The notes below the pieces were generated by a model. The model did not search any database and had not been told where the DNA came from. It was given only the letters and a program-made list of their open reading frames with translations. A DNA stretch of 32,830 nucleotides from Terriglobia bacterium. GTDB lineage: Bacteria; Acidobacteriota; Terriglobia; Terriglobales; Acidobacteriaceae. The stretch covers positions 1-32,830 of the forward strand of contig JAJPJZ010000176.1 in assembly GCA_021323935.1 (NCBI GenBank), given 5' to 3'. A program made the translations under genes and the position numbers. This document shows, piece by piece, positions 3,170 to 30,968 of the stretch (the stretch's first letter is position 1; each line of letters begins with the position of its first letter).

Positions 3170-5455
3170 ATGGCTGATGATCGAAGTTCGACGCTGAAGG
3201 TCAATGCCGGGCAGCAGATCCCGTCGCCGCGCGGCGGCGCGGTGCAGGTGTTCGTGGCCACGACCGTGATGCTGTCATTCATCTCGTTCTGGCGGGCGGC
3301 GGCCATTGTTCTCTCCGACCTTGCCTCGTCGGCGTACTACGTTGGCGGCGACACCGAGAACATCGTCGGCAAAAGCGCGCCGTGGTTTGTGCTGGCCGTG
3401 ATGTTGTTCAGCTACGCGGTGCGGGCGCTCTACATTGAATCGAGCTCGATGTTCGTGCGCGGCGGCGTGTACCGCGTAGTGAAAGAGGCCATGGGCGGCA
3501 CGCTGGCCAAGTTTTCAGTCTCGGCGCTGCTGTTCGATTACATCCTGACCGCGCCGATCAGCGCCGTCGCGGCAGGCATTTACCTTGCCGGCTTCCTCAA
3601 GGACGTGGCGGGCTATTCCGGCTATGCGCTGCACTACAACGACAATTACTTCGCCGCCGGGTTTGCCGTGCTGATCGAGCTGTACTTCTGGTGGAAGAAC
3701 ATCCAGGGCATCCACGAATCCAGCGACAAGGCCATGAAGATCATGAAGATCACCACCGTCATGGTGGTGATCCTGATCGGCTGGTCGATCTACACGGTGT
3801 TAAAACTGCACGCGCACCTGCCACCGCTGCCCTCGCCGCACAACTTCGCCATCGTTAAAGGCGAGAACAAGACCGACGAAGCGCTGGGCTGGCTGCACGG
3901 CTCCTGGGTGCAAGGGGTGATGCCGTTGATCCTGCTGATCGGGTTTGGCCACGCGGTGCTGGCCATGAGCGGCGAAGAGACGCTGGCGCAGGTCAATCGC
4001 GAAATCGAAAGCCCCAAGCTGAAGAACCTGGAAAAAACCGGCTTCATCATTTTCGTTTACAGCCTGCTGTTTACCTCGCTGGTGTCGTTTTTTGCCGTGA
4101 TGATCATTCCGGACGCGCAGAGGCCGCAATTTTTCGGCAACCTGATCGGCGGGATTGCGATGTTCCTGGCCGGGCCGATGCCGGCAAAGCTGCTGTTCCA
4201 CGCATTTGTCGTGGTGGTGGGCGTGCTGATCCTCGCCGGCGCCGTGAACACCGCAATCATCGGCGCCAACGGCGTGCTGAACCGCGTGGCCGAAGATGGC
4301 GTCCTGACCACGTGGTTTCAGCGCCCGCATAAACGCTACGGCACCAGCTACCGAATCATCCACCTGATTGTTGCGCTGCAGGTGGCCACCATCGTGATCA
4401 GCCGCGGCAACGTGTTCCTGCTGGCCGCTCTGTACGCCTTCGGCGTGATCTGGAGTTTTTCGTTCATGGCGCTTTCCGTGATGGTGCTGCGCTTCAAGCA
4501 GGCCGACGCCAAGCGCGAATGGAGGGTGCCCATCAATCCGCGCATCGGCGGGCGCGAGGTCCCGGTCGGCTTGATGGTGATTGCAGCAGTGCTGTTCGCC
4601 ACCGCCATCATCAACCTGTTCACTAAGCCCGACGCAACCATCGCCGGCGTGGGTTTCAGTTGCGTGTTCTTTGTGATCTTCACGATTTCAGAGCGGCATG
4701 AACACAAGGTGCGCGCCGCGGCTGAAAACATCGAACAGTTTCGCGTCAGCGAGCGCGAGGACCTGGACACGGCGGCCATCGCGGTTCGTCCCGGCAACAT
4801 CCTGGTGGCAGTGCGCGATCCGCGTAATCTCGGCTACCTGCAGCAGGTGCTGCATGACACCGACACCACGCGCCAGGATGTGGTGGTGATGACGGCGCGC
4901 CTTTACCATCGCGAGCACAGCTTCGGCGGCTCAACCCAGATGGAAGCCAAGTACGTCTTCGATCTTTACGAGCAGGAGCTGTTTACCCGCGTGGTTGCGG
5001 TGGCCGAAAAAGAAGGTAAGCCGGTGCACTTGCTGGTAGTTCCGGGAACCAACGTGTTTGACACCATCGTAGGCACGGCGCAGCGGCTGCAATCGAGCAT
5101 GATCGTCAGCGGGCTCTCACAGCAGTTAACGGCTGACGAACAGGGCAAGTTTACCGGCGACGCATGGGAGCGCCTGCCCGAGCCGCGCGCCTCAATGACG
5201 TTGCAGATCGTCGCGCCCAGCGGCGAGGCGCACCGCTACGAACTGGGGCCGCACACGCCGGGCCTGCGCAAAGACGACCTGGTGCTGGTCCACGATGTTT
5301 GGCTGGAGCTTACCGCCATGCCTGAGTTCCGCAAGCTGCACCACTACCACGTAATCTCGGTCGCGGTGGAGCGGCTGCGGCGCGACCTGCACAACAGCGC
5401 GCGGGCTGAAGTTCTGGGCGAACTGAGTAAAGACCTGGACAGCCCCAACGACTGA
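3170..5455 (+). CDS. APC-superfamily amino acid permease with Usp-like cytoplasmic C-terminal region
   Basis: About 12 hydrophobic segments with APC-type motifs (VYRVVKEAMGGTLAKFSVSALLFDYILTAPISAVAAG; GHAVLAMSGEETLAQVNREIESPKLKNLEKTG). Soluble C-terminal region ILVAVRDPRNLGYLQQVL...HLLVVPGTNVFDTIVGTAQRLQSSMIVSGLS resembles universal stress protein folds. Confidence 0.9.
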   Translation: MADDRSSTLKVNAGQQIPSPRGGAVQVFVATTVMLSFISFWRAAAIVLSDLASSAYYVGGDTENIVGKSAPWFVLAVMLFSYAVRALYIESSSMFVRGGVYRVVKEAMGGTLAKFSVSALLFDYILTAPISAVAAGIYLAGFLKDVAGYSGYALHYNDNYFAAGFAVLIELYFWWKNIQGIHESSDKAMKIMKITTVMVVILIGWSIYTVLKLHAHLPPLPSPHNFAIVKGENKTDEALGWLHGSWVQGVMPLILLIGFGHAVLAMSGEETLAQVNREIESPKLKNLEKTGFIIFVYSLLFTSLVSFFAVMIIPDAQRPQFFGNLIGGIAMFLAGPMPAKLLFHAFVVVVGVLILAGAVNTAIIGANGVLNRVAEDGVLTTWFQRPHKRYGTSYRIIHLIVALQVATIVISRGNVFLLAALYAFGVIWSFSFMALSVMVLRFKQADAKREWRVPINPRIGGREVPVGLMVIAAVLFATAIINLFTKPDATIAGVGFSCVFFVIFTISERHEHKVRAAAENIEQFRVSEREDLDTAAIAVRPGNILVAVRDPRNLGYLQQVLHDTDTTRQDVVVMTARLYHREHSFGGSTQMEAKYVFDLYEQELFTRVVAVAEKEGKPVHLLVVPGTNVFDTIVGTAQRLQSSMIVSGLSQQLTADEQGKFTGDAWERLPEPRASMTLQIVAPSGEAHRYELGPHTPGLRKDDLVLVHDVWLELTAMPEFRKLHHYHVISVAVERLRRDLHNSARAEVLGELSKDLDSPND

Positions 5456-24492: not shown

Positions 24493-24915
24493 ATGCGTGT
24501 TCTTGCCGCATCCCTGGTGCTTCTGCTGGTATCGCCGGCATTTGCCAGCACTCCTGCCAGCTTCCGCGGCAAAGTGATCGAGTTTCCTAACGAAAAGCGC
24601 TCAGCGCCTGACCTGATCTTCGTCATGGCTCGCAACGGCGCGCTGCGCCGCGTGCAGGTGGGAAAAGCCCGTGTCAGCTACGATGAGCATATTCCCGCCA
24701 GGCTCCGCTACAGGCAGCACAGCCAGGGCCTGAAGCACGGCGCCGAAGTTCGCGTCGAAGCCGAAGAGAACGGCCACGGCCTGTGGCGTGCCCGCACTAT
24801 CGAAATCATCGGGGTTCCCGGCGCTCCCGCGCCTGAGCCGCGCGCCCAGGCCAGGCCCAAGCTTCCGCAAAGCGACCGCCCCGCCACCGGGCCCGTGCTC
24901 TCCAAGCGCAGTTAG
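24493..24915 (+). CDS. Exported hypothetical protein (140 aa)
   Basis: Signal peptide MRVLAASLVLLLVSPAFAS; SFRGKVIEFPNEKR...VRVEAEENGHGLWRARTIEIIG, small beta-rich-looking domain. Confidence 0.65.
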   Translation: MRVLAASLVLLLVSPAFASTPASFRGKVIEFPNEKRSAPDLIFVMARNGALRRVQVGKARVSYDEHIPARLRYRQHSQGLKHGAEVRVEAEENGHGLWRARTIEIIGVPGAPAPEPRAQARPKLPQSDRPATGPVLSKRS

Positions 24916-25116
24916 CATTTTTCCTTTTTCGTCTCCGTTGTTTCGCAAACGCCGCAGCCGCCGCCTGCCGTGAAGGCCGCTCTGGTGTCTCACCGAAGCA
25001 TTTTGCCGGCTCCGCCATGCGGCCAGCCCGGACCTGCCCATTTGGGTGATGTGGCCGTGCTTAAACTGCGCGATTCTGCAGATGCCGGAGCACGTTCCCG
25101 GCGAATGGAGATCAGA

Positions 25117-25986
25117 ATGGCAACGACATTAACCGAACTTTCAAAGGCCCTGGCGGACGCGGTCGAGGCGGCAGGGCGCAACGTAGTTGCAGTGCACGAA
25201 GGCGGGCGCGCAGGCGTGAGCGCAACTCTGTGGCGCGATGACATCGCCGTAACGGCGGCGCATACCATCGCCGGCCTCAAATCCGTCACGCTCACCCTGC
25301 CCGATGGCACGAGCGGCACCGCCGAGGTCGCCGGCGTGCTCCCCACTGCTGACCTCGCCGTGCTGAAGCTGGCAAAGAAATATTCAAGCCACGCGCAAGC
25401 TGCCGCGGCCGGCGCACTTCGCGTCGGCGACTTCGTGCTCGCCGTGGGCAGGCGCGGCGCGAACGGCGTTGTGGCCACGCACGGCATCATCAGCGCCATT
25501 GGCGAGGGAGAAAAGCCGCTGCGCCTTGACGTACAGCCATTCACCGGCTTCAGCGGCGGTCCGCTGGTCGGGGCCGATGGGCGCGTTATCGGCGTCAACA
25601 CCTCCGGCCCGCGCCGCAACCTGGCCACAATTCCCGCAGCAGCAGTTGAAAGCGCCGTGGTCACCCTGCTCGCCAAAGGCCGCTTTCCCGTGCCTTACAT
25701 CGGCATTGGCCTGCAGCCGGTGCGGCTCTCCTCAAGCGCCCAAAGCGATGCGGTTCGCCGCGCCCTGCTGGTCGTGATGGTTGAGCCCTCAGGCCCGGCG
25801 CACAAGGCAGGGCTGCTCGTGGGAGACATCATCAGTCATGTCGATGGCGCCGAACTCACCCAAGCTCGCGACCTGGAGCGCGCGCTGAAGCCCGAGCGCA
25901 TCGGCCAATCCATCCGCGTAGGAGTCATCCGGGCGGGCAAGCAGCAGGAGATCGCGGTCACCATCGGCGACCGCGAATCGCGCTGA
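25117..25986 (+). CDS. Trypsin-like (S1C/HtrA-like) serine protease with C-terminal PDZ, no evident signal peptide
   Basis: His VTAAHTI, Asp TADLAVLKL, Ser GFSGGPLVG; PDZ-like VVMVEPSGPAHKAGLLVGDIISHVDGAELTQARDLERAL. ATG at 25117 preceded by GGAG at 25107-25110. Confidence 0.87.
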   Translation: MATTLTELSKALADAVEAAGRNVVAVHEGGRAGVSATLWRDDIAVTAAHTIAGLKSVTLTLPDGTSGTAEVAGVLPTADLAVLKLAKKYSSHAQAAAAGALRVGDFVLAVGRRGANGVVATHGIISAIGEGEKPLRLDVQPFTGFSGGPLVGADGRVIGVNTSGPRRNLATIPAAAVESAVVTLLAKGRFPVPYIGIGLQPVRLSSSAQSDAVRRALLVVMVEPSGPAHKAGLLVGDIISHVDGAELTQARDLERALKPERIGQSIRVGVIRAGKQQEIAVTIGDRESR

Positions 25987-26019
25987 CCGAGGCCGAATTC
26001 AGAACAGGAGGGAAGTGCG

Positions 26020-26616
26020 ATGGCTGCAGCGGTGAATCCGGCGGGCGAGTTGAGCATCATTGGGAGCACGGGTTTTGGGGAGGCGGCCGAGCGCCTGCGC
26101 GCCGTCACGGTGCAGGTCATCACCGCAACCCGCGCCGGGGCCGGGTTCGGCTCTGGCGTGCTGTGGTCGGCTAACGGGCTGGTGATCACCAATGCGCACG
26201 TGGCGTCACGCGGGCGGGTGGTGGTGGTCTTCCAGAACGGCAGCCGATACGAAGCGGTAGTCGCCGGCGCCGACGGCCAGCATGATCTCGCCGCTTTGCA
26301 GATTCGGGGAGCAGTGTTCAGCCCGGCGGCAGTGCGCGATTCAGCCACGCTGCGCGTCGGCGAGCTGGTGATCGCGATGGGCAATCCGCGGGGTGAAATC
26401 GGCGCGGTCACGGCAGGCATGGTGCATCGCGTTGGCCAGGGCAGCCTGATTGAAACCGACGTTCACCTTGCGCCCGGCAACTCCGGCGGGCCGCTCGCCG
26501 ATAGCGAAGGGCGCGTGCTCGGCGTGAACTCGTGCATCGTCAATGGCCTTGGAATCGCGATTGGAAGCCGCGCCATTCAAGCATTCGTAGCGCGGCTGGT
26601 GAGCGCAAAAAACTGA
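26020..26616 (+). CDS. Minimal trypsin-like serine protease (no PDZ, no evident signal peptide)
   Basis: GFGSGVLWSANGLVITNAHVA, HDLAALQI, PGNSGGPLADSEGRVLGVNS; AGGAGG ribosome-binding site upstream of ATG. Confidence 0.87.
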   Translation: MAAAVNPAGELSIIGSTGFGEAAERLRAVTVQVITATRAGAGFGSGVLWSANGLVITNAHVASRGRVVVVFQNGSRYEAVVAGADGQHDLAALQIRGAVFSPAAVRDSATLRVGELVIAMGNPRGEIGAVTAGMVHRVGQGSLIETDVHLAPGNSGGPLADSEGRVLGVNSCIVNGLGIAIGSRAIQAFVARLVSAKN

Positions 26617-26617
26617 A

Positions 26618-27199
26618 ATGGTGCGTGTTCGCATCGTCGCTCGAAGTGCTGTCTCGGCTGCCGGCTTTGAAGCTGTGCTGCTTGCCGGCGGCCGCTGCGA
26701 AATCAGCCGGTCTGCCGCCGACGTGGTGCTGGTCGAAGCCGGCCTGTCGCTGAAGCATGCCCTCGAGCGCGTGCGTGAGCACTCGGAGAGCGCGTGCATC
26801 GTTATTGCCGATAACCTGTCGCGGCGCGAGCTGCTTCACGCGCTGCATTCCGGCGTGCTGGCGGTTCTGCCGACGGCGTGCTCGCCCGAAGAGCTGCTCG
26901 CCGCCATTGAAGCCGCCGCCGCGGGCCTGGCAGCTTTCACCCCTGAGCAGCTCGAACGGCTGCTGCCTTCGGCTGCCGATCCGGGCGACGGCGACCTCAG
27001 CGAGCCGCTCACGGCGCGCGAATCGCAGGTGCTCGAACTGCTGGCCCAAGGCCTGGCCAACAAAGAAATCAGCGCCGCGCTGCACGTCTCCGAGCACACC
27101 GTCAAATTTCACGTCAGCTCAATCATTGCCAAGCTGGGCGTCGCCGGCAGGACCGAAGCCGTCAGCCGCGGGGTGCGCGACGGCCTCATCCTGCTCTAA
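26618..27199 (+). CDS. LuxR/NarL-type regulator with degenerate receiver-like N-terminus
   Basis: C-terminal LTARESQVLELLAQGLANKEISAALHVSEHTVKFHVSSIIAKLGVAGRTEAVSRGVRDGLI (GerE/LuxR HTH). N-terminal half receiver-like but without canonical acidic pocket. ATG 1 nt after the preceding stop. Confidence 0.9.
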   Translation: MVRVRIVARSAVSAAGFEAVLLAGGRCEISRSAADVVLVEAGLSLKHALERVREHSESACIVIADNLSRRELLHALHSGVLAVLPTACSPEELLAAIEAAAAGLAAFTPEQLERLLPSAADPGDGDLSEPLTARESQVLELLAQGLANKEISAALHVSEHTVKFHVSSIIAKLGVAGRTEAVSRGVRDGLILL

Positions 27200-27225: not shown

Positions 27226-28542
27226 CTACGCGCGGTTCATGCGCCGGTATTCGTCGAAGGCTGCCAGGAACCGGTCGATGTCCGACTTCAGCAGGTAATA
27301 CGGCGTTGAGAGGCGCAGCTTGGAAGGCTCGCCGCCGCGGATGCGGATCTTCTTCGTCTGCCACAGCCAGTTCTCCAGGTCCATGCGCTTGATCGGCGGC
27401 ACGTTCACCGTGGCAATGCCGCAGCGCAGTGCCGGGTCAGGCGAGGTCCACGATTCCGCGCCACGCTTCACCATCTCTGCATGAATGTAGTCGGCCATGG
27501 CGCGATGCCGCCGCTCGATGCGGTCAAGCCCAATGTGATTGCACAAGTTAATTGCCGCGCGCAGCCCCCAGAGGTTGGGCACATTCGAGGAACCGAACAT
27601 CTCAAAGCGTTGCGCTTTTAGTTGCGGCTCGTCCCAGCCGTGCGTGGCAAGCGTGTTCCACACCCGCTCCTGGACTTCCGGCCGGATGTACAGATACCCG
27701 GAGCCTTTGGGCGCCATCAGCCACTTGTGCGGGCTCGAAGTATAAAAATCGCAGCCGATCTCGTGAATGTTCAGCCGCATCATCCCGGTGACGTGCGCGC
27801 CATCGAAGGCGGAGAGAATGCCTTTATCCCGAGCGAACTGCGCGATCTCGCTGGCCGGCAGCACCACGCCCGTATCGGTCGAAATGTGGCTGACAAAAAT
27901 AATGCGGGTGCGCGGCGTGATGGCGTCGCTGATACGATTCAGGATTTCGGCGGCGCTCTTCGCCGGCTTGGGAATCTGGAACTTCTTTACCACCACGCCG
28001 TAGCGCTTGGCCCGCAGGTTCCACGGCTGTTCACCGCCGGGGTGCTCCTGGTCGCTCATCAGCACCTCGTCGCCCGCCTTCATCTCCAGCCCATTGGCGA
28101 TGTAGCTGTTGGCTTCGGTGGCGTTGCGCACCAGCGCAATTTCGTCGCGCGAAGCGCCCACAAACTCCGCCAGCGGATCGCGAAACTCGTTCCACGAGTC
28201 GTAGCCCCAGATCGGGTAGTCCTCGGGGTTGGGCTGGTCCATGCGCTCGGTTTGCTTGTAGCCGTCAAAAACGGCGTTCAGGACAGGCCATGGCGACGAG
28301 CCTACCGTGCCGTTATTCAGGTAAACCTCATCGCTCGGGATGAGGAACTGCTTGCGCATCTCGGCCCAGAACGGGTCTTCGTTAGGGAAGGCAGCCGGAT
28401 CGGGCAATTTGGCCGGCGGCGCCGGGTCAGGGCCGGCCGAAGGCACCCCCGCCTTCGCACTCGATTGCGCTAACGACCTTAGTTCCAGCGGGATGGCCAT
28501 CCCGGTGGCTGAAACTGCAGCTAAAAAACGCCGTCGATCCAT
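27226..28542 (-). CDS. Class V (PLP-dependent) aminotransferase-fold protein with Tat signal
   Basis: N-terminus MDRRRFLAAVSATGMAIPLEL (Tat-like); LSAFDGAHVTGM; DFYTSSPHKWLMAPKGSGYLYIR (PLP lysine motif). Confidence 0.9.
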   Translation of the reverse strand: MDRRRFLAAVSATGMAIPLELRSLAQSSAKAGVPSAGPDPAPPAKLPDPAAFPNEDPFWAEMRKQFLIPSDEVYLNNGTVGSSPWPVLNAVFDGYKQTERMDQPNPEDYPIWGYDSWNEFRDPLAEFVGASRDEIALVRNATEANSYIANGLEMKAGDEVLMSDQEHPGGEQPWNLRAKRYGVVVKKFQIPKPAKSAAEILNRISDAITPRTRIIFVSHISTDTGVVLPASEIAQFARDKGILSAFDGAHVTGMMRLNIHEIGCDFYTSSPHKWLMAPKGSGYLYIRPEVQERVWNTLATHGWDEPQLKAQRFEMFGSSNVPNLWGLRAAINLCNHIGLDRIERRHRAMADYIHAEMVKRGAESWTSPDPALRCGIATVNVPPIKRMDLENWLWQTKKIRIRGGEPSKLRLSTPYYLLKSDIDRFLAAFDEYRRMNRA

Positions 28543-30076: not shown

Positions 30077-30356
30077 ATTGCCGTGGAAACACTACCGGCG
30101 ACTTCCCCTGGAAGCTCTTCGCGTGCCGGTCAGCGAATATTGTTTACTTGATCGTGAGATGAAGCGGGCTGGCTGCCTGCGGTGCCATCTCGTCCCGCAT
30201 CGGCGGGATTAGGAAGATGTACGCCCCACCAGCCCCAGCAGGGTTCTTCCCGCAGGCCAGCCTTGCTGATTTCGATGTTCCTGACCTGCCGGAAGGGTGC
30301 CTTTGCTCGCCGGAGTCGCTCGCTGCCTTCGGCTCATCCAATACAATAGGAATGCG

Positions 30357-30968
30357 ATGAAGGACGAACGCGACACACCGTCAGTTCCGGCCGCCGAGAC
30401 GCACCTTTCAGGCAAGCAGCGCTTTGAAGACCTGGTGGGCAGCGAGCACGATCGCCGCCAGACTGCCTACGCCACCTATGGCGGCGGCGGCCAGCCCGAA
30501 GGCATCGTTTTCACCACGCTCGATAAGGCCGTGAACTGGGTGCGCAAGAACTCGCTGTGGCCCATGACCTTTGGCCTGGCTTGCTGCGCCATCGAGATGA
30601 TGGCGATGGGGGCGTCACGTTTTGATATTGCCCGCTTCGGCGCCGAAGTTTTTCGGCCTTCGCCGCGGCAGTCGGACCTGATGATCATTGCCGGCCGCGT
30701 GTCGCAGAAGATGGCGCCGGTCATCCGCCAGCTCTGGGAGCAGATGCCGGAACCGAAGTGGGTGATCTCGATGGGCGCCTGCGCAACTTCAGGCGGCGTG
30801 TTCAACAACTACGCGCTGGTCCAAGGTGTGAACCAGGTGGTGCCGGTTGATGTCTATGTGCCGGGCTGCCCGCCACGCCCTGAAATGCTCATCTACGCCA
30901 TCACGCTGCTGCAGGAAAAGATTGGCAACGAACGCGGCAGCTTTAAGCGCGCGCTGAACCTGGCGTAA
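30357..30968 (+). CDS. nuoB: NADH-quinone oxidoreductase subunit B
   Basis: [80 protein letters not shown]...[13 protein letters not shown], with all four cluster-N2 cysteines. Confidence 0.95.

Follow-up and report, generated by a model that had tools for sequence, protein, structure and literature searches.

Three closely spaced genes on a contig of a Terriglobia bacterium raise the question of whether two trypsin-like proteases and a regulator with a GerE DNA-binding domain form a single functional unit and, if so, what connects them. The contig, analysed at its full length of 32,830 nt (32.8 kb) and referred to here as the window, is one of the 408 that make up a 3.4-Mb genome assembly. 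The original prediction described three same-strand genes, here called P1, P2 and the regulator, with gaps of 33 nt (P1/P2) and 1 nt (P2/regulator), and the re-derived coordinates agree with it (Table 1). Since the upstream neighbour (24493-24915) is a small gene whose start is signal-like and an aminotransferase gene (27226-28542, minus strand) is convergent with the cassette on its downstream side, the stretch 25034-27199 can stand as a unit of its own. A consensus scan for a sigma-70 promoter or a terminator at the cassette gave nothing useful. Two observations concern other genes of the window: the aminotransferase is of class V and has a twin-arginine-like N-terminus (MDRRRFLAAVSATGMAI), and a NuoB-like protein (30297-30968, plus strand) carries about 65 additional N-terminal residues ahead of its NuoB domain.

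Table 1. Features of the cassette, in positions of the window.
Feature	Position	Strand	Basis or remark
Predicted operator CTGCCCATTTGGGTGATGTG	25034..25053	+	64-83 nt upstream of P1 start
P1	25117..25986	+	289 aa; ATG at 25117, stop at 25986
P1 catalytic His49 codon	25261..25263	+	alignment; not His in 20/86 relatives, one of these a gap
P1 catalytic Asp79 codon	25351..25353	+	alignment
P1 catalytic Ser146 codon (GFSGG)	25552..25554	+	alignment; other residue in 24/86 relatives
P1 PDZ domain	25693..25962	+	Pfam PDZ_2, residues 193-282
YIGI carboxylate-binding loop of P1 PDZ	25696-25707	+	loop retained in active and dead P1 relatives
P2	26020..26616	+	198 aa
Regulator gene	26618..27199	+	193 aa
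GerE DNA-binding domain, signature SEHTVKFHV	27005..27166	+	Pfam; most conserved stretch of regulators
Codons of tail GLILL-COOH, proposed PDZ ligand	27182..27196	+	strict tail in 56/56 cassette regulators

In the window, both proteases have a complete His/Asp/Ser triad, as had been claimed, and the alignments place it at H49/D79/S146 in P1 and H60/D89/S155 in P2. P1 matches the Pfam families Trypsin_2 (3.7e-18) and PDZ_2 (1.9e-16), and P2 matches Trypsin_2 (2.3e-28), with no PDZ match in the window's protein; longer relatives of P2 have a C-terminal extension that resembles a PDZ domain on visual inspection. The AlphaFold model of P1 (pLDDT 92.3) includes the PDZ domain, and the top fold match in the PDB is DegS with a YQF peptide (1.7e-23). 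Against the curated DegP, DegS and HhoA family cut-offs of 416, 423 and 450 bits, P1 scores 139.7, 100.5 and 113.2 bits and misses all three. In the phylogenetic tree, P1 forms a single, fully supported clade separate from other HtrA proteins.

HtrA/Deg (S1C) proteases are usually, though not universally, exported or membrane-anchored. No export signal or membrane anchor was found in P1 by hydropathy or in the AlphaFold model, in which residues 2-20 form a confident helix attached to the protease domain. The maximal N-terminal 17-residue hydropathy is 0.75 for P1 and 0.85 for P2, compared with 1.7-2.7 in the three exported HtrA proteins of the same genome. Moving the P1 start upstream does not rescue export, because the in-frame sequence gained (24970-25116) lacks hydrophobic character; it also includes the predicted operator. 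The export signals from re-annotated starts that the original prediction regarded as damaging were thus not seen for P1, and both proteases look cytosolic from hydropathy and the P1 model, as it had proposed. This location is not remarkable by itself, since HtrA-like proteases without a signal exist outside the cassette. Five loci of the same phylum (L104, L106, L110, L113 and L126) encode such proteins without a clear signal peptide (motif LLDAYSxAV...SPSVVNI), and cytosolic HtrA-like proteins may be widespread.

The distribution of the genes bears directly on whether they belong together. A search of 80 relatives with P1 gave six genomes with a strong match; besides the window's own, in four of these a GerE regulator directly follows a full-length P1, and in one genome of the same family P1 and its Edaphobacter aggregans counterpart are nearly identical. 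When 84,980 species genomes were scanned with a profile, 80 loci emerged, across which start codons were set by alignment. A GerE regulator lies beside P1 on the same strand in 50 of the 70 loci whose downstream sequence spans 1.5 kb or more, and P2 is present as well in 24 of the 50. The cassette occurs in at least nine phyla (Acidobacteriota, Cyanobacteriota, Chloroflexota, Gemmatimonadota, Rokubacteria, Thermomicrobiota, Armatimonadota, Deinococcota and Pseudomonadota), mostly in the order P1-P2-regulator or P1-regulator, with regulator-P1-P2 in several Chloroflexota. The original prediction had named a lack of co-occurrence outside this strain as the result that would speak against it; the genes were found to co-occur widely. 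By comparison, the phylum sample contains 23 other HtrA-like loci (L104-L126), all without a regulator of this kind beside them, and no flanking genes are conserved across phyla. Pairwise distances of P1, P2 and the regulator correlate (r 0.68-0.77, Mantel p 0.0005), as would also be expected from shared descent. Taken at the level of gene order, these data support the view that the genes form one conserved unit. Some copies are located on plasmids, whose records label the pair only "S1C family serine protease" together with "response regulator transcription factor" or "LuxR C-terminal-related transcriptional regulator".

A shared DNA motif accompanies the genes. Unsupervised EM, run on 70 non-redundant loci with 290 nt surrounding the P1 start of each, recovered a 20-bp near-palindromic motif, CTRSCCATTYGGCYGATGYG, in about 60 of the 70, located roughly 50-150 nt upstream of P1 and in the same orientation (log-likelihood 463, compared with 63-78 for six shuffled sets). 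Its first 16 columns are a near palindrome (self-reverse-complement similarity 0.84, compared with an average of 0.68 over shifts), which is what a dimeric helix-turn-helix protein would give, and the motif extends asymmetrically (GATG), pointing the same way as P1. When about 890 kb of loci were scanned with the position weight matrix, essentially one site was found, ahead of each P1; the window site scores 26.8 and the runner-up in the window 11.6. In the genome of the window, searched by mismatch pattern rather than by matrix, this site is the sole copy with 0-1 mismatch, and no wider regulon is visible there (6 two-mismatch sites, compared with 20 for a reversed-pattern control). Cassettes hold nearly all copies of the site in four Nostocales genomes. 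A second operator-like site (L048:3187, score 18.8) was noted in a Thermosynechococcaceae genome ahead of a signal-less HtrA-like gene (3303-4343); it implies that small regulons may exist, and in this genome the regulator may have a further protease under its control. In myxobacteria, P1-P2 carries the motif with no adjacent regulator, and each of the two genomes tested, Pyxidicoccus (L229) and Corallococcus (L231), has one outstanding unlinked cassette-type regulator that ends in GLVTL. As far as genome comparison can show, the predicted operator, P1, an optional P2 and the regulator are co-inherited across phyla, and the motif is essentially single-copy per genome.

The two proteases have had different fates. 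P2 forms a clade of its own (support 89), with the exception of myxobacterial P2, and is not a recent copy of P1, which corrects the earlier term "paralogue-like"; a recent P1-P2 duplication is ruled out by the separate clades. The P2 triad is kept in all 42 relatives that cover it. The P1 triad is intact in 61 of 85 relatives and lost in the other 24, with replacements such as Glu-Asp-Ala in Nostocales and Glu-Asp-Glu in relatives from Acetobacteraceae. This loss maps to six changes on the tree, at least four of which are independent, as forced by strongly supported branches. A dead P1 stands beside a live P2 in 11 cassettes, and the reverse combination was never seen; in L010, L011, L060, L092, L088, L095 and L220, a dead P1 has no adjacent P2, and the regulator with its tail is retained. 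The PDZ carboxylate loop is maintained in dead as in active P1, a conservation that is partly built in, because the genome collection was queried with peptide patterns taken from the PDZ domain; loops starting with G[YF]LG cannot match pattern 1 and are therefore exempt. The alignments show that P1, judged by its residues, is often no longer a protease yet keeps its peptide-binding part, and that P2 stays catalytic by the same measure.

The regulator has a Pfam GerE match (2.3e-21) and no receiver match. In the window a receiver-like fold is kept according to AlphaFold and Foldseek, which matches ChrA, LiaR and VraR; the acidic pair is missing, and the acceptor position is occupied by Glu. Among cassette regulators, 26 of 55 have an Asp where the acceptor normally lies, and only 4 of the 55 combine it with the acid-pocket residue. 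The degenerate receiver that had been proposed for the window is therefore borne out, and the pocket residues are degenerate across cassette regulators. The receiver is nearly gone in L028, L089, L096 and L220, in all of which the tail is retained; L089, L096 and L220 pair a dead P1 that has its PDZ domain with a receiver-less regulator of 124-131 residues that keeps the tail. One of these, L220, lies on a conjugative plasmid of Bradyrhizobium sp. Ash2021, where a dead P1 is followed by a 125-aa regulator ending in GVINL, with no operator match above threshold. A cassette regulator of Edaphobacter aggregans (L077:5810-6459) is split into two adjacent ORFs, probably by a frameshift or sequencing error.

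This tail is the second recurrent element of the regulator. All 56 cassette regulators terminate exactly at Gly-x-[LIV]-x-hydrophobic-COOH, a count that does not amount to 56 independent observations because they form one lineage. The same strict terminus occurs in 9 of 65 other GerE regulators (about 14%; 0/24, 4/28 and 5/13 in three sets), so that, on the evidence of the compared termini, the tail is characteristic of cassette regulators and not exclusive to them. The Gly-[LI]-[IV] portion is common in NarL-type regulators; the distinctive feature is stopping right there on a hydrophobic residue. Two close relatives of the regulator, L189 (G106) and L202 (G326), have the strict tail, and neither P1 nor the operator motif occurs within about 6 kb of them. 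In the AlphaFold model, the tail is extended beyond the last helix. From the conservation of the tail and of the PDZ domain, we infer a contact between the two.

These elements can be combined into a tentative scheme, whose chances are put slightly below even: a self-contained, autoregulated cytosolic protease operon for quality control, in which the PDZ domain of P1 binds the regulator tail and expression is set by titration feedback. Judging from synteny and the single-copy motif, the regulator would bind the operator motif, as repressor or activator, and mainly control its own operon. The PDZ domain of P1 would bind the hydrophobic C-terminal tail and lock the regulator in one state. Proteins that are damaged or unassembled and expose hydrophobic C-termini would compete for the PDZ domain and free the regulator, which would lead to more P1 and P2; the competing proteins would then be degraded by P2 or by an active P1. 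Under this titration scheme P1 would be sensor and adaptor and P2 the blade, comparable to DnaK as sensor for HspR. Since L089, L096 and L220 keep the PDZ domain of a dead P1 and a bare DNA-binding domain with the tail, the simplest assumption makes recognition of the tail by the PDZ domain the core, with proteolysis as an additional output. The broader proposal, that this is a widespread cytosolic stress-sensing circuit in which the PDZ domain of an active or dead protease directly reads a transcription-factor tail, cytosolic hydrophobic C-termini set expression, and the irreducible core consists of a PDZ pseudoprotease and a bare, tailed GerE domain, is possible, and we would lean against it at present.

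Other explanations of the same genes have to be weighed. The regulator may sense something else, such as a small ligand, a phosphorylation partner or redox state, through its variable N-terminal domain, with the proteases as plain effectors and the tail serving GerE dimer packing. The single motif and co-inheritance require no PDZ contact, and both the receiver-like fold in the window and the frequent acceptor-position Asp would fit; however, the receiver residues are degenerate throughout, the domain is nearly lost in some cassettes whose tail remains, and the retention of the PDZ domain in dead P1 is left unexplained, so we consider this unlikely, though worth keeping in view. Rather improbable is a proteolytic switch, in which operon activity is set by cleavage, with P1 and P2 acting on the regulator or on one another in the way that DegS cleaves RseA. 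PDZ-activated proteolysis is established for DegS, the best fold match of P1, and the triad is always intact in P2 and of the active type in most P1 relatives. Set against this are the cassettes that have a dead P1, no adjacent P2 and yet a regulator with its tail, as well as the alignment of cassette regulators, in which no conserved cleavable linker was seen. As the core mechanism, proteolytic processing by P1, which the original prediction had given as an example, is not supported in view of the 24 dead P1 relatives and of those cassettes, in which the PDZ domain and tail are kept.

Cytosolic trypsin-like proteases are also found in biological-conflict systems (PMC7159879), and a conflict or phage-defence module would agree with the plasmid-borne copies and the patchy distribution (a strong P1 match in 6 of 80 relatives, four of them, besides the window's own, being cassettes). 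The PADLOC matches are weak, however, and confined to the trypsin fold shared with RT-Protease_XI, by which a known defence system was rejected; moreover, flanks are not conserved and no NTPase or toxin recurs among the neighbours, which makes such a role very improbable. That ordinary HtrA paralogues merely lie next to an unrelated regulator is hardly credible: all three families are common, but gene order and motif are conserved across phyla and the P1 clade stands apart from other HtrA proteins, so that synteny and motif refute chance neighbourhood.

The proposed autoregulated operon resembles several known systems without coinciding with any. Like HtrA/Deg proteases (MEROPS S1C), P1 combines a trypsin-like domain with a PDZ domain bearing a [YF]xG[LIV] carboxylate loop; unlike them, it has no export signal, forms a separate clade, is often catalytically dead, falls far under the DegP/DegS cut-offs and is coupled to a dedicated transcription factor. 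With the DegS/RseA/sigma-E pathway it would share a PDZ domain that reads hydrophobic C-termini and is tied to stress-gene transcription, as proposed for the cassette; that pathway is periplasmic and membrane-bound and acts by anti-sigma cleavage, whereas the cassette parts all appear cytosolic. The regulator has the receiver-like domain and GerE helix-turn-helix of NarL/FixJ-type regulators (LiaR, VraR, RcsB) and differs in its degenerate phospho-acceptor pocket or lost domain, its strict hydrophobic C-terminus and the lack of a recurrent linked histidine kinase among cassette neighbours. As in the HspR-DnaK and HrcA-GroEL circuits, the operon encodes putative quality-control proteins together with a predicted regulator of their own. 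According to PMC8223512 and its reference Bandyopadhyay 2012, HspR is encoded in the dnaK operon, which it autoregulates together with its co-repressor DnaK, and its hydrophobic C-terminal tail mediates the dependence on DnaK; the cassette regulator likewise has a hydrophobic C-terminal tail. The proteins are unrelated, with a GerE regulator in place of HspR and a PDZ (pseudo)protease in place of the chaperone, and the cassette feedback is a proposed one.

No description of the module was found in the open-access literature, in keeping with its earlier selection as a candidate undescribed system, and the cassette appears to be an undescribed self-regulating unit. Two of its features are unusual: a dedicated 20-bp operator motif that is recognisable across many phyla, and a protease that, next to its own regulator, has repeatedly turned into a pseudoprotease with a PDZ domain. 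The cassette offers a ready two-protein case for intracellular PDZ control of transcription factors in bacteria, and a function would follow for many genes annotated merely as "S1C family serine protease" and "response regulator".
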